The notes under the pieces: model-generated
Seen by the model: only the letters and a program-made list of their open reading frames with translations
What the model was told of the DNA's origin: nothing
The model's database searches: none
Assembly (NCBI RefSeq): GCF_000473325.1
Contig: NZ_KI421513.1
Span: forward strand, 1,063,217 to 1,127,216
Source: Leisingera caerulea DSM 24564
GTDB lineage: Bacteria; Pseudomonadota; Alphaproteobacteria; Rhodobacterales; Rhodobacteraceae
Reading direction: 5' to 3'
DNA length: 64,000 nt
In this document: positions 3,192 to 33,484 of the stretch, piece by piece
Position numbering within the stretch: the first letter of the stretch is position 1
Layout: every line of letters begins with the position of its first letter
Made by a program: the position numbers and the translations under genes

Positions 3192-5810
<2,619 letters not shown>

Positions 5811-29221: not shown

Positions 29222-29872
29222 ATGTCTCACATCACGCTGATCCGTCACGGCCAGGCCAACACCAGCGCCCGGGATGAGGCGAGCTATGACCGGCTGAGCG
29301 ATCTGGGCCACCAGCAGGCCGCCTGGCTGGGAGACCACCTGCGCAGCAGCGGCAATCATCATCCGCGTGTCTATTGCGGCACCCTGACCCGGCATATCGA
29401 GACCGCCGCCTCAATGGGATATACGGACGCCGTGCAAGACGCGCGTCTCAACGAGATGGAGTATTTCACCTTGGCTGAGGCGATGCGCGATCAGCACGGG
29501 CTGCCGATCCCGCAAGAGCGTGAAGGCTTTGTCGAGCATCTGCCCAAGGTCTTTACCGCTTGGGCCGCAGACGAAATTTCAGAGCCTTACGAAAGCTGGT
29601 TGCATTTCGAAACCCGCACGCGGCAGGCGCTGGAGGAGATCGCCGCAGGCGAAGGGCCGGCGCTGGTGGTCACCTCGGGCGGGCTGATTTCAATGGCGCT
29701 GCGCCAGGCAATGGGGCTGGACACCACGGGCATGGCGCGGCTTGCGCTGGCGATCATGAACACCTCCATGCACCGGCTGTTTCCCATCGGCGGCCACTGG
29801 AGCCCGGTTTTGTTCAACGCAGTGCCGCATCTGGAAGCGCCGGACCGGCATTTTGCCCAGACACATCTGTGA
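29222..29872 (+). CDS. Histidine phosphatase family protein
   Basis: A 216 aa member of the phosphoglycerate-mutase-like superfamily. The N-terminal LIRHGQANT carries the catalytic His, and VVTSGGLISMAL holds the region of the second active-site residue, although the classical V-x-H-G His is replaced by SGG here, an oddity worth noting. The substrate is unknown. It is followed 21 bp later by a GST gene with the lysine operon immediately after; all read in the same direction. Confidence 0.85.
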   Translation: MSHITLIRHGQANTSARDEASYDRLSDLGHQQAAWLGDHLRSSGNHHPRVYCGTLTRHIETAASMGYTDAVQDARLNEMEYFTLAEAMRDQHGLPIPQEREGFVEHLPKVFTAWAADEISEPYESWLHFETRTRQALEEIAAGEGPALVVTSGGLISMALRQAMGLDTTGMARLALAIMNTSMHRLFPIGGHWSPVLFNAVPHLEAPDRHFAQTHL

Positions 29873-29893: not shown

Positions 29894-30508
29894 ATGCAGC
29901 TGTATTACGCCCCAAACACCATTTCAGTGGCTGTGGCCATCGCGCTGGAAGAAGCCGGGATCGACTATGAGACGGTGGAAATCGACTTTGCCGCCAAGCA
30001 GCAGGCTGGCGCAGCTTATGCTCAGATCAACCCCAAGGGCCGGGTTCCCGCGCTGGCCGTCGAGGGCGGCATCCTGACCGAAACCGGCGCCCTTCTGGAA
30101 TACATCGCCGACACGGCGCCCGAGGCCTCCTTGCGCCCGCAGGATCCGGTGCGGCTGGCCCGGATGCGCGAGGTGATGTTCTACCTTGCCTCCACCATGC
30201 ATGTGAACCACGCCCACCGCCTGCGCGGCGCCCGCTGGGCCAAGGAGCGGTCCAGCTGGAAAGACATGCAGAAGATGGTGCCGCAGACCATGACGGCCTC
30301 CTGCGTGTACATCAGCCAGTTTGGCCTGCGCGGGCCGTTTGTGCTGGGTGACGGAATAAGCCTCGCCGATTGCTATCTATATGTGGTCTGCACCTGGCTT
30401 GAAGGCGACGGGGTAAACGTGGCGGACTTCCCGAAAATCCAGAACTTCATGACGGCAATGGAACAGCGCGAGTCCGTGCGCGCGGTCTATGCCAAGGGAA
30501 TGCTTTGA
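29894..30508 (+). CDS. Glutathione S-transferase family protein
   Basis: A 204 aa two-domain protein: thioredoxin-fold N-terminal domain (about 1-80, with NPKGRVPALAV, the cis-Pro glutathione-binding loop, and TETGALLEYIAD) and an all-helical C-terminal domain containing ISLADCYLYVV. Beta-like class by overall pattern. A GGGAGGAAG ribosome site precedes the ATG. Its stop lies 11 bp before the start of the saccharopine dehydrogenase, so it is probably in one transcript with it; a role in lysine breakdown is not evident. Confidence 0.93.
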   Translation: MQLYYAPNTISVAVAIALEEAGIDYETVEIDFAAKQQAGAAYAQINPKGRVPALAVEGGILTETGALLEYIADTAPEASLRPQDPVRLARMREVMFYLASTMHVNHAHRLRGARWAKERSSWKDMQKMVPQTMTASCVYISQFGLRGPFVLGDGISLADCYLYVVCTWLEGDGVNVADFPKIQNFMTAMEQRESVRAVYAKGML

Positions 30509-30519
30509 AGGACATGACA

Positions 30520-31572
30520 ATGACGCATCTGTGGGTACGGGCCGAACAGCGCCCCAATGAAGAGCGGGTGGGCCTCACCCCCGAAGGGGCCAAGGCGCTG
30601 CTAGCAGGCGGCATCAAGGTCACGGTGGAGGAAAGCTCGGTGCGGGCAATCCCGCTGCAGGGCTACATTGACGCGGGCTGCGAGATTGCGCCGGAAAACT
30701 CCTGGCCCCAGGCGCCTGCAGACGCAATCATCTTCGGCCTCAAGGAACTGCCCGAGGACGGCACCCCGCTGCCGCACCGCCACATCATGTTCGGCCATGC
30801 CTTTAAGGGCCAGCACTCCGGCAAGGCTCTCCTGGAGCGGTTCAAGGCCGGCGGTGGCACGCTTTATGATCTGGAGTATCTCGTCGATGAGGCCGACCGC
30901 CGGGTTGCTGCGTTTGGCTACTGGGCAGGCTATGCCGGGGCTGCGGTGACGCTGAAGGCCTGGGCGGCCCAGCAGCGCGGCGAGGTCTGCGGGCCGGTTG
31001 GCGTTTACGGCGGCAAGGATTCGCTGCTGGCCGAACTTGGCGCAGAGCTTGACGCACTGAACAAGGACCGCCCCACTGCCATTGTCATCGGCGCGCTTGG
31101 CCGGGTCGGCACAGGCGCTGCTGATCTTTGCGAGGCAATGGGCGTGCAGGTCACCAAATGGGACATGGCCGAAACCGCAAACGGCGGCCCCTTCCCGCAG
31201 ATCCTGGACCATGACCTGTTCCTGAACTGCATCTTCGCACGTCCCGGCACCCCGGTTTTTGTTCCCCGTGAAGCATTGGCTGCGGAACGCAAGCTGACCG
31301 CCATCGGCGATGTCGCCTGCGACCCGGACAGCGATTACAACCCGGTGCCGGTCTATACCCAGGCTACTACCTGGGACGTCCCCGTGGTGCGCGTTGCCGA
31401 GAACCCGGTGCTTGACGTCATGGCCATCGACAACCTGCCGTCGATGCTGCCGGTGGAAAGCTCGGAGGATTACGCCGCCCAGCTGCTGCCCTCGCTGCAG
31501 GCTCTTACCGATCTGGACAGGGGTGTCTGGGGCCGGGCCAAGGCCACCTTCCTGGAGCATGTGCCCGAATGA
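30520..31572 (+). CDS. Saccharopine dehydrogenase, lysine-forming type (lysine-ketoglutarate reductase)
   Basis: A 350 aa NAD(P)-dependent enzyme of the LYS1/LKR type, joining lysine and 2-oxoglutarate into saccharopine or the reverse. Active-site residues matching yeast Lys1 are visible: Lys75 in FGLKELPEDG and His93 in MFGHAFKGQ; the nucleotide-binding IVIGALGRVGTGA follows at about 190. Starts at 30505 (TTG) and 30514 (ATG) are possible, but GAAGG 8 bp before the ATG at 30520 favours that one. The PQ-loop gene begins inside its stop codon and the second dehydrogenase follows, making a lysine catabolic operon as reported for the related Ruegeria (Silicibacter) pomeroyi. Confidence 0.92.
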   Translation: MTHLWVRAEQRPNEERVGLTPEGAKALLAGGIKVTVEESSVRAIPLQGYIDAGCEIAPENSWPQAPADAIIFGLKELPEDGTPLPHRHIMFGHAFKGQHSGKALLERFKAGGGTLYDLEYLVDEADRRVAAFGYWAGYAGAAVTLKAWAAQQRGEVCGPVGVYGGKDSLLAELGAELDALNKDRPTAIVIGALGRVGTGAADLCEAMGVQVTKWDMAETANGGPFPQILDHDLFLNCIFARPGTPVFVPREALAAERKLTAIGDVACDPDSDYNPVPVYTQATTWDVPVVRVAENPVLDVMAIDNLPSMLPVESSEDYAAQLLPSLQALTDLDRGVWGRAKATFLEHVPE

Positions 31573-31820
31573 TCGCGCCTTACGTCGGCTATTTGGCGGC
31601 CATCCTGGGCACCGTCTGCTGGATCCCCCAAGCCTGGAAGGCCTGGGCCTCCCGCGACACCTCCGGCCTGTCGCTGCCCTCGAACCTGATGTTCCTGGCC
31701 ACGGTTTCTCTATGGCTGGCCTATGGGGTGATGGTCGGCGACTGGCCTTTGATCCTGGCAAATATCTGCGCCGTGACCGCCATTCTGGTGATCGTCACAG
31801 CCAAACTGAAATTCGGATAA
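31569..31820 (+). CDS. SemiSWEET-like PQ-loop membrane protein
   Basis: An 83 aa, three-helix protein with the PQ motif in VCWIPQAWKAW (Pro20-Gln21) in the first helix, the size and shape of a SemiSWEET, which functions as a dimer. Known SemiSWEETs move sugars, but related full-length PQ-loop proteins such as lysosomal PQLC2 move cationic amino acids. It overlaps the stop of the lysine-forming dehydrogenase gene by 4 bp and is 12 bp ahead of the second saccharopine dehydrogenase gene, so it is translated from the lysine operon. A lysine-pathway substrate (lysine, saccharopine or aminoadipate) is inference. Confidence 0.9.
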   Translation: MIAPYVGYLAAILGTVCWIPQAWKAWASRDTSGLSLPSNLMFLATVSLWLAYGVMVGDWPLILANICAVTAILVIVTAKLKFG

Positions 31821-31832
31821 GGGAGAACTCTC

Positions 31833-32975
31833 ATGACTATACACTGGTGCGGCACCGGCCTGTCGGCAATCCCCGGCCTGCGACGCCTGCTGGAAGCAGG
31901 CCACGACGTGGCGGTCTGGAACCGGACCACGGACAAGGCGCGCGAGGCAGTGGGCGACCTGACCACCAACATCCACGCCTTCAGCATCGCCAACCTGGGC
32001 CAGATGCTGAGCCCCAAGGACGTCATCGTCTCGATGCTGCCCGGCGACTGGCACGTTTCGCTGGCGGAGCTGGCGATTGAACACGGCGCGCACTTTGTCT
32101 CCTCCTCCTACATCGCGCCGGAAATGCGCGCGCTGGACCAGAAGGCCAAGGATGCAGGCGTCTGCCTGATCAACGAGGTGGGGCTGGATCCCGGCATCGA
32201 CCACCTGATGGCGCATGCGCTGGTGGCGGACTACAAAGCGTCCGATGCCTTTGACCCGGAAAACGAGATCAGCTTCATCTCCTACTGCGGCGGCATTCCC
32301 AAAATGCCGAACCCGTTCCGCTACAAGTTCAGCTGGTCGCCGCTTGGCGTGCTGAAAGCGCTGCGCTCGCCCTCCAAGTCGATCCGCGATTTCAAGGAAC
32401 TGGATGTCGCCCGCCCCTGGGATGCGATCTCCTCTTACGAGGCGCCGCTGCCCGCACCGGAGACCTTCGAAGTCTACCCGAACCGCGACTCGATCCCGTT
32501 CATGACGCAGTATGAATTCGGTGAGGACTGGAAGGTGAAGGAATTCGTCCGCGGCACCCTGCGCCTCAACGGCTGGGCCGACGCATGGGCGGACGTGTTC
32601 AAGGAGGTCGAGACCCTCTCCGGCCCCGAAGGCGACGCTCGCCTCAAGGAAATGTCGGACCAGTTCTGGGCCGAGAACGCCTATGACGAAGGTGAGCCGG
32701 ACCGAGTCGTCCTCTGTGTGGGCCTGAAGGCTGAAAGAGACGGTGCCGAGGTCTGGCACAAGACCTACGTTATGGACGCCTGGGGCGACGAGCGCGGCAC
32801 CGCGATGGCGCGCCTGGTGTCGTACCCGGTGTCGTTCGCGATTGAGGCCGCCATGAACGGTAAGATTGCCGCCGGGGTTCACGCCGCCCCCAGCGGTCCG
32901 GCTCTGGTGGAGAAATGGATGGGTGAAATCGGCAAGCTGGCGCAGCACCTCGAGGTTGTTGACAGTAAGGGCTGA
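31833..32975 (+). CDS. Saccharopine dehydrogenase, glutamate-forming type (SDH)
   Basis: A 380 aa enzyme that oxidises saccharopine to glutamate and aminoadipate semialdehyde, completing lysine breakdown with the upstream LKR-type enzyme. The N-terminal part IHWCGTGLSAIPGLRRLLEA is a variant Rossmann nucleotide site; SSSYIAPEM, NEVGLDPGIDHLMA and YCGGIPKMPNPFRYKFSWSP are signatures of the Lys9/SDH class. It has a GGGAGA ribosome site. It is the last gene of the operon; a hairpin and a terminator follow. Confidence 0.94.
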   Translation: MTIHWCGTGLSAIPGLRRLLEAGHDVAVWNRTTDKAREAVGDLTTNIHAFSIANLGQMLSPKDVIVSMLPGDWHVSLAELAIEHGAHFVSSSYIAPEMRALDQKAKDAGVCLINEVGLDPGIDHLMAHALVADYKASDAFDPENEISFISYCGGIPKMPNPFRYKFSWSPLGVLKALRSPSKSIRDFKELDVARPWDAISSYEAPLPAPETFEVYPNRDSIPFMTQYEFGEDWKVKEFVRGTLRLNGWADAWADVFKEVETLSGPEGDARLKEMSDQFWAENAYDEGEPDRVVLCVGLKAERDGAEVWHKTYVMDAWGDERGTAMARLVSYPVSFAIEAAMNGKIAAGVHAAPSGPALVEKWMGEIGKLAQHLEVVDSKG

Positions 32976-33160: not shown

Positions 33161-33484
33161 TTAGCGGCCGATCACGTCGTCCTCGACGTCGTTTACGTCG
33201 ATGCCCAGCGCCTCCAGCCCGGCCTCCAGATTGTCCGCCAGATGCGGCGTGCCAAGCAGGTAATCAACGGTCGGCGTGGTTGCCTCCTGGCGGGCGGTAT
33301 ATATTGCCTCGCCCAGTTCCTCAGGCTCGAAGCTCCCGCGGCCGACCCACATGATGCCGACCAGTTCGGACTGCTGATCCTCGCTCATCCGGTCGATGAA
33401 GGCGCGCAACTCGCCCTCCGCCCGCCCCAGTTCACGGGCCATCATCGCCACCTGTGCCACCTTGCGGACTGAGATCTCCAGCAT
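33161..33484 (-). CDS. DUF3775 domain protein
   Basis: A 107 aa acidic, soluble protein made up of one DUF3775 domain. Recognisable parts are MSEDQQSELVGIMWVGRG and YLLGTPHLADNLEAGL. The family is conserved in alphaproteobacteria without a known function. It is separated by 87 bp from the upstream cyclase gene on the same strand and converges with the lysine operon. Confidence 0.88.
   Translation of the reverse strand: MLEISVRKVAQVAMMARELGRAEGELRAFIDRMSEDQQSELVGIMWVGRGSFEPEELGEAIYTARQEATTPTVDYLLGTPHLADNLEAGLEALGIDVNDVEDDVIGR

Follow-up and report, generated by a model that had tools for sequence, protein, structure and literature searches.

A SemiSWEET with an altered substrate pocket as an optional gene between the saccharopine dehydrogenase genes of Leisingera and other Rhodobacteraceae

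Introduction

SemiSWEETs are homodimers of three-helix units in which alternating access around a PQ hinge moves a solute down its gradient. The substrate pocket of the characterized members is described as consisting of a tryptophan (Trp50 in E. coli, Trp48 in L. biflexa), an asparagine (Asn66 and Asn64, respectively) and a threonine (Thr15 and Thr13) (PMC4309421; PMC5972207), and in L. biflexa Asn64 and Thr13 are reported to coordinate the glucose hydroxyls (PMC5972207, citing Latorraca 2017). The closest described case is the SemiSWEET A0A0B4DPF1 of Leisingera sp. ANG1, which was reported to lie between two saccharopine dehydrogenase genes and for which a role was suggested (Jia et al., 2018, PMC5972207). 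Both the gene arrangement and the guessed role in lysine metabolism have hence been in print for strain ANG1 since 2018, and nothing besides that work was found in our literature search for SemiSWEETs together with saccharopine.

The metabolic setting has been described for two related bacteria. Two routes are reported for Ruegeria pomeroyi DSS-3: one through saccharopine, with lkr being SPO3307, and one through lysine dehydrogenase, which is favored at high salt and produces aminoadipate as an osmolyte (PMC4334477). For Phaeobacter inhibens, the introduction of another study states that prior work points away from the saccharopine route for lysine degradation (PMC5653290). Given these different accounts, the role of the lysine-forming and the glutamate-forming saccharopine dehydrogenases (here LKR and SDH) may differ between genera.

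Gene organization of the locus

The stretch of DNA analyzed here, referred to as the window, comprises 64,000 nucleotides of Leisingera caerulea DSM 24564. Five genes with short spacing follow one another on its forward strand, encoding a histidine phosphatase-superfamily protein, a glutathione S-transferase (GST)-like protein, LKR, the SemiSWEET and SDH. The histidine phosphatase gene (29222..29872; Pfam His_Phos_1, 79.3 bits) apparently opens the operon and was found in 50 of the 54 listed embedded loci in which 1.4 kb or more of sequence precedes LKR. The GST-like gene (29894..30508; GST_N, 60.6 bits) is an optional member, only some LKR loci having one upstream of LKR. A convergent DUF3775 gene on the reverse strand (33161..33484; 98.9 bits) marks the operon border in the window and in many other loci.

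The LKR reading frame (30505..31572; AlaDh_PNT_N) begins at a TTG at 30505, and one of the in-frame ATGs at 30514 and 30520 is the likelier start. Residues 5-352 of its 355 match 2qrj, entitled 'saccharopine dehydrogenase, NAD+, L-lysine-forming' (E 3.8e-81), which we take to be the Lys1 protein of yeast. SDH (31833..32975), of the Lys9 type, matches 1e5l, 'saccharopine reductase' (E 1.3e-42), and both of its domains, Sacchrp_dh_NADP and Sacchrp_dh_C (141.9 bits), score above the Pfam cut-off. With these matches the labels LKR and SDH hold by homology, and the two genes together look like a split saccharopine pathway. The SemiSWEET gene (31569..31820, 83 codons plus stop) begins with an ATG at 31569-31571 that overlaps the LKR stop codon TGA at 31570-31572, the two reading frames sharing four bases, and its own stop is separated by 12 bases (31821-31832, GGGAGAACTCTC) from the SDH ATG at 31833. 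The reading frames thereby bear out an earlier note on this DNA, made from the letters alone, that placed a half-size PQ-loop gene with its start inside the LKR stop codon and 12 bp before SDH, and the homology of the neighbors agrees with the names that it had given to the flanking pair.

The 83-aa protein scores above the Pfam cut-offs for both the PQ-loop family (PF04193, 32.7 bits against 22) and MtN3_slv (PF03083, 26.3 bits against 23.7), and slightly below that of NCBIfam SemiSWEET_2 (E 2.6e-22, 78.7 bits against 80). Its matches among PDB sequences are SemiSWEETs (8 distinct sequences, E<=1). Three helices are predicted (3-28, 36-56 and 59-82), which makes one three-helix unit of a length within the approximately 80-100 aa of SemiSWEETs, and the family marks Pro20, Gln21, Trp49 and Asn65 are present. 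By these sequence features the protein is a SemiSWEET. A single-chain AlphaFold2 model had a mean pLDDT of 91.5 and gave no discrimination. A second PQ-loop protein was not found in the genome, either with the protein as query (E<=1, one match at E 0.62 being counted as noise) or with the PF04193 profile (E<=0.001).

Distribution among LKR-SDH pairs

In a family sample of 198 genomes, one per genus, LKR was found in 120 genomes, SDH in 88, both in 83 and both adjacent to each other in 82 (matches at E<=1e-20). The gap between the two matches is 8-154 nt in 77 of the 82 adjacent pairs and 263-288 nt in the other five, which are exactly those with a SemiSWEET. The association that the earlier note had drawn from a single locus therefore recurs in 5 of 82 pairs and is absent from 77; since these 77 pairs lack the gene, the pathway has no need of it, and the SemiSWEET is an accessory gene of LKR-SDH pairs. 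One further genus with the gene between the enzymes (G693) came from the phylum sample. The LKR query matched 9 of 289 class-level genomes, four of them from the same family, and 14 of 299 phylum-level genomes, all from the same family, so that within the window's phylum LKR as detected by this query is close to confined to the family. Four class-level loci outside the family that have both enzymes (L166-L169) gave no SemiSWEET match at E<=1e-8.

Two side observations were made on the enzymes. In the family sample, 37 of the 120 genomes with LKR (e.g., L058) have no SDH match at E<=1e-20, and these may have either half of the pathway or a different partner enzyme. In L084 (2935-3994) and L099 (2926-3986) LKR appears in two overlapping pieces, which may be due to a frameshift or an assembly error.

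The association is tight when the SemiSWEET is taken as the starting point. Nine of the 198 genomes of the family sample have a SemiSWEET match (E<=1e-4), five of them within an LKR-SDH pair. A scan of species genomes, an uneven set of which about a sixth is Leisingera-type, yielded at least 63 related SemiSWEET loci, and among the matches listed the order LKR-SemiSWEET-SDH is found in 59 of 63, the exceptions being L126, L128, L129 and L132; the idea that the arrangement is a peculiarity of this one genome can be discarded. In 51 of the 59 listed loci the distance between the LKR stop and the SemiSWEET start falls in the range of -4 to +1 nt. Of the 21 genomes of the genus, 15 carry the gene, embedded in every case (both enzymes lie within 1.5 kb at 14 loci, the window being the fifteenth), and the remaining six retain LKR and SDH, 38-177 nt apart. 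A class-wide SemiSWEET profile search (E<=1e-8) matched 53 of 289 genomes, and of the 30 loci listed one is the window's own; around the other 29 neither LKR nor SDH was matched (E<=1e-4), to a distance of about 1.5 kb or the shorter one available near contig ends at L140 and L146.

Some of the loci deserve separate mention. At L128 (Paracoccus alkanivorans, about 4001-4243) and L007 (family sample, about 1501-1737) a SemiSWEET with the pocket state described below lies between an apparent hisD and a UPF0262-like gene, apparently a second operon slot for this clade, and the SemiSWEETs of L126 and L129 adjoin a GST-like gene; the neighbors at these four loci were named by eye from their translations. 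Two records titled Nocardioides marinus and Flavobacteriia (L089 and L111) hold Rhodobacteraceae-like LKR-SemiSWEET-SDH loci and are probably mislabeled or contaminated assemblies. Spread by plasmids was considered and set aside, as the gene had no match in a plasmid collection (blastn, E<=1e-5).

Substrate pocket

The earlier note had asked for its proposal to be judged by the likeness of the pocket to those of glucose and sucrose SemiSWEETs, and the pocket turns out not to be identical to theirs, differing at two positions. The embedded sequences were compared with a background set of 121, made up of the relatives of P0116 together with P0115 and P0116. Much of the site is shared: the PQ motif (Pro20-Gln21, 31626..31631) and the pocket tryptophan (Trp49, 31713..31715; E. 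coli Trp50, L. biflexa Trp48) are invariant in both sets, and the pocket asparagine (Asn65, 31761..31763; E. coli Asn66, L. biflexa Asn64) occurs in 60 of 60 embedded and 112 of 121 background sequences, so that all four residues are retained throughout the embedded set. The third pocket residue, the threonine of the characterized sugar SemiSWEETs, is absent here. Its place, aligned with L. biflexa Thr13 and E. coli Thr15, is taken in the window by Gly14 (31608..31610), and position 14 is Gly in 60/60 embedded sequences versus Thr in 121/121 of the background. Position 45, four residues before the pocket tryptophan (31701..31703), is Thr in 59/60 embedded sequences (Asn in L131) versus Gly in 120/121 of the background (Ala in the other one). 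The embedded clade also differs in having Trp26 in 60/60 sequences, and Asn or Gln at position 39, where E. coli has its gate residue Tyr40.

The pocket state could be read in 364 of 368 sequences (for the window protein 115 of 118 relatives, for P0116 119 of 119, for L143 101 of 102, and 29 of 29 class-level loci). Gly14 occurs only together with Thr45 or Asn45 (112 sequences), and Thr, Ser or Cys at position 14 only together with Gly, Ala or Cys at position 45 (252 sequences); the mixed states Gly14 with Gly45 and Thr14 with Thr45 were found in none of the 364. Of the homologues of the window protein that could be read, 112 of 115 have Gly14. As judged from these alignments, the two pocket changes are fixed and coupled in the clade. 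The Gly14/Thr45 state is also found in four of six non-embedded relatives (L007, L126, L128 and L129), and the pocket change is therefore not tied to the operon alone. In those parts of the SemiSWEET literature that we consulted, no description of the Gly/Thr swap or of the presence/absence pattern was found, neither having been searched for by name.

Charge and substrate class

No position of the embedded core (residues 1-23, 33-57 and 59-78) carries a charge in at least a fifth of the 60 sequences. The positions that do reach this level (24, 29, 30, 32, 58, 79 and 81) belong to loop, rim and tail. The background set has its charges at positions 4, 24, 27-30, 32, 57, 58, 79 and 81 and likewise lacks core charge; the uncharged core is thus a family trait and no mark of this clade. 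Among PQ-loop and related carriers of non-sugars, a plant cystinosin is reported to need Lys55, Lys166 and Asp191 (PMC9385667) and the mitochondrial pyruvate carrier to need K49 and H86 (PMC12007569). Given these requirements and the lack of a conserved core charge, a permanently charged substrate is less likely, and a net-neutral solute would be the likeliest substrate class as far as the residues indicate. The tie to the lysine operon that the earlier note proposed is accordingly upheld in part: recurrent embedding and an altered pocket speak for it, while lysine, saccharopine or aminoadipate as substrate is unsupported, the core having no conserved charge.

Labile presence and selection

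On a tree of LKR and SDH (93 rows), built by a quick method with no mixture model, the presence of the SemiSWEET requires 15 changes, at least nine of them being forced by starred branches, versus a mean of 28.5 changes when the labels are shuffled on the same tree. Gains and losses are counted alike and are not distinguished. The nearest row to the window in this tree is L. aquaemixtae CECT 8399. Near sisters (L101 vs L017, L131 vs L037) differ by the clean presence or absence of the SemiSWEET alone. In the SemiSWEET tree, weakly resolved with its 81 columns, a cluster separate from the remaining embedded SemiSWEETs (support 100/98) unites the embedded L127, L130, L131 and L171 with the non-embedded L007, L126, L128 and L129. 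Given this grouping, the clade moved between slots at least once, and entry into the LKR-SDH slot or departure from it happened more than once.

Divergent types occupy the same slot. Compared with Leisingera ANG1 (L108), the window is 92% identical in LKR and 97% in SDH versus 67% in the SemiSWEET, with dN values of 0.05, 0.02 and 0.24, respectively. In the seven ANG1-type loci it is at the SemiSWEET that DNA identity falls, most strongly in the second half of the gene, to 60-64% versus 84-95% in the flanks. The reverse is seen with L071, from another lineage, where identity to the window is 93% for the SemiSWEET, 88% for SDH, 86% for LKR and 74% for the GST-like protein. These contrasts in divergence from L108 and L071 suggest that the SemiSWEET was replaced in place between lineages. 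We infer replacement and go no further, since a single clade of the 12 Leisingera-type SemiSWEETs was not rejected by the AU test (p 0.094), and fast divergence in place stands as its alternative. The ratio dN/dS is 0.04-0.10 within types among near relatives (12 comparisons) and 0.15-0.32 between types (3 comparisons); the SemiSWEET is under strong purifying selection. Given the within-type ratios and the same slot in 59 of the 63 listed loci, the embedded gene represents more than chance.

The junction itself takes up other DNA. By eye, a G+C-rich palindrome was recognized between LKR and SDH in four of the six non-carrier genomes of the genus (L195, L196, L197 and L199), and a similar one is present in G075. 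The possibility that the 154-nt gap of G075 holds a decayed SemiSWEET was considered and rejected, the three forward frames lacking one and the palindrome being there instead. The palindrome is a dispersed repeat with the core pattern GGGCGGAARCRAAGYGCCCGCC (LKR-SDH junctions of L194-L199; L042, about 2560-2710). Allowing at most one mismatch, this pattern has 3 to 14 matches per genome in the five genomes searched, and its reversed control has none in the same five; it has no match in the window. As dispersed palindromes sit at the junction, the junction accepts insertions, and this weakens the argument from position.

Possible functions

From the observed family membership, operon place, presence/absence pattern, pocket change and purifying selection, we tentatively prefer a reading that is somewhat short of probable, namely that the SemiSWEET acts as an optional facilitator whose solute is small and net-neutral and whose synthesis accompanies that of the saccharopine enzymes. 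The protein, presumably a homodimer like its relatives, would let the solute cross the membrane down its gradient. In the Rhodobacteraceae clade a pocket hydroxyl would have moved from helix 1 (L. biflexa Thr13, here Gly14) to helix 2 (Thr45), with the Trp-Asn pair retained and the core uncharged, and translational coupling would probably make this optional cistron along with the enzymes. The solute might be small, polar and linked to lysine or osmolyte metabolism rather than lysine, saccharopine or aminoadipate themselves. The two lysine routes described for R. pomeroyi, one of them giving an osmolyte, are in favor of such a link. Against the facilitator speak the account of P. inhibens, in which lysine is degraded by other means than saccharopine, the four of six non-embedded relatives that share its pocket, the 77 of 82 pairs with no SemiSWEET, and the six of 21 genus genomes that lack it and still retain both enzymes; also, given the insertions at the junction in four of these six, the slot may simply accept insertions. 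A bolder version, which we regard as speculative and doubtful, makes the Gly14/Thr45 SemiSWEETs of Rhodobacteraceae a non-sugar branch of half-size PQ-loop facilitators, in which the relocated hydroxyl confers selectivity for a zwitterion of lysine metabolism with no net charge, such as pipecolate or its cyclic precursor, exchanged between the cell and its surroundings by an optional, swappable add-on to the saccharopine operon.

The main competitor, possible if rather unlikely, is that an ordinary sugar or polyol SemiSWEET, unrelated to lysine, sits in an expressed slot that permits insertions, its linkage being maintained by recombination across the conserved LKR and SDH flanks, mainly between such slots. 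The retained PQ motif, tryptophan and asparagine fit this, as do the palindromic repeats in the same slot, the relatives with the same pocket in other slots and the divergent types between conserved flanks, which in-place replacement would be expected to leave; the sugar-coordinating threonine, however, has become Gly in 60/60 embedded sequences and in 112 of 115 readable homologues of the window protein. That canonical SemiSWEETs occupy the slot in none of the 29 listed class-level loci says little here, because few genomes of other families have LKR. Transport of lysine, saccharopine or aminoadipate, which would couple uptake or export to both enzymes, we consider quite unlikely. It would account for the recurrent embedding and for the altered pocket, and an uncharged pocket need not exclude an acid. 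Gibberellins, for instance, are carboxylic acids. For AtSWEET13, gibberellin is a reported cargo in addition to sugars (PMC11196581), and an uncharged pocket would be compatible with such a cargo; the core without conserved charge, where cystinosin and the pyruvate carrier need charged pockets, and the 77 of 82 pairs without the gene nevertheless weigh against it. As for a hitch-hiking or decaying gene with no transport role of its own, the frequent absence and the 15 gains or losses on the enzyme tree are what it predicts, but strong purifying selection and the conservation of Pro20, Gln21, Trp49 and Asn65 in all 60 embedded sequences make it highly improbable.

Returning to the facilitator, a clade that combines a fixed, coupled change at the sugar-coordinating site with a tight link to an amino acid pathway offers a clean test for non-sugar transport by the smallest carriers. 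Coral isolates including Leisingera, Pseudophaeobacter and Roseovarius have been reported to have SemiSWEET genes, and sugar export was proposed as a possibility for selected probiotic candidates that have such genes, a Roseovarius and a Pseudophaeobacter being among them (PMC10439622). The SemiSWEETs of these three genera fetched here, from our own genome set and not from those isolates, are of the lysine-operon type, which bears on the sugar-export claim. Given the pocket swap, the usual assumption of a sugar cargo may be open to question for this SemiSWEET and its close relatives.

Comparison with known systems

Cystinosin and PQLC2 share the PQ-loop superfamily with the SemiSWEET, but cystinosin is described with seven helices and essential charged pocket residues, whereas the SemiSWEET has three helices and no conserved core charge; instead of the two PQ-loop repeats of the cystinosin type, it has a single PQ-loop stretch. 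The mitochondrial pyruvate carrier likewise consists of half-size three-helix units, carries a non-sugar and is reported to be structurally closest to SemiSWEET, from which it differs as a heterodimer with essential K49 and H86 and no sequence similarity (PMC12007569). AtSWEET13 resembles the window protein in having a polar residue (Ser54, Ser176) four residues before each pocket tryptophan (Trp58, Trp180), as Thr45 is here, an equivalence drawn from motif spacing and not from superposed structures, and it differs in its two three-helix repeats with a linker helix and in Ser20, which also lines the pocket (PMC9520054). Four residues, Ser54 and Ser176 among them, are reported to distinguish carriers of monosaccharides from those of disaccharides (PMC9520054), and in simulations these two serines contribute only small energies for glucose (PMC11196581).

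The bacterial SemiSWEETs of L. biflexa (4qnc), E. coli (4x5m) and 4rng are like that of the window in size, PQ motif and the pocket tryptophan and asparagine. They carry Thr at position 14 and Gly at position 45, where the window's protein has Gly and Thr; 4rng is presumably the T. yellowstonii protein, and 9kax is, by eye, in the Thr/Gly state too. Nearest of all is the SemiSWEET of Leisingera sp. ANG1, which belongs to the same family and occupies the same slot, and which unlike the window's is of a divergent type, the two proteins being 67% identical.
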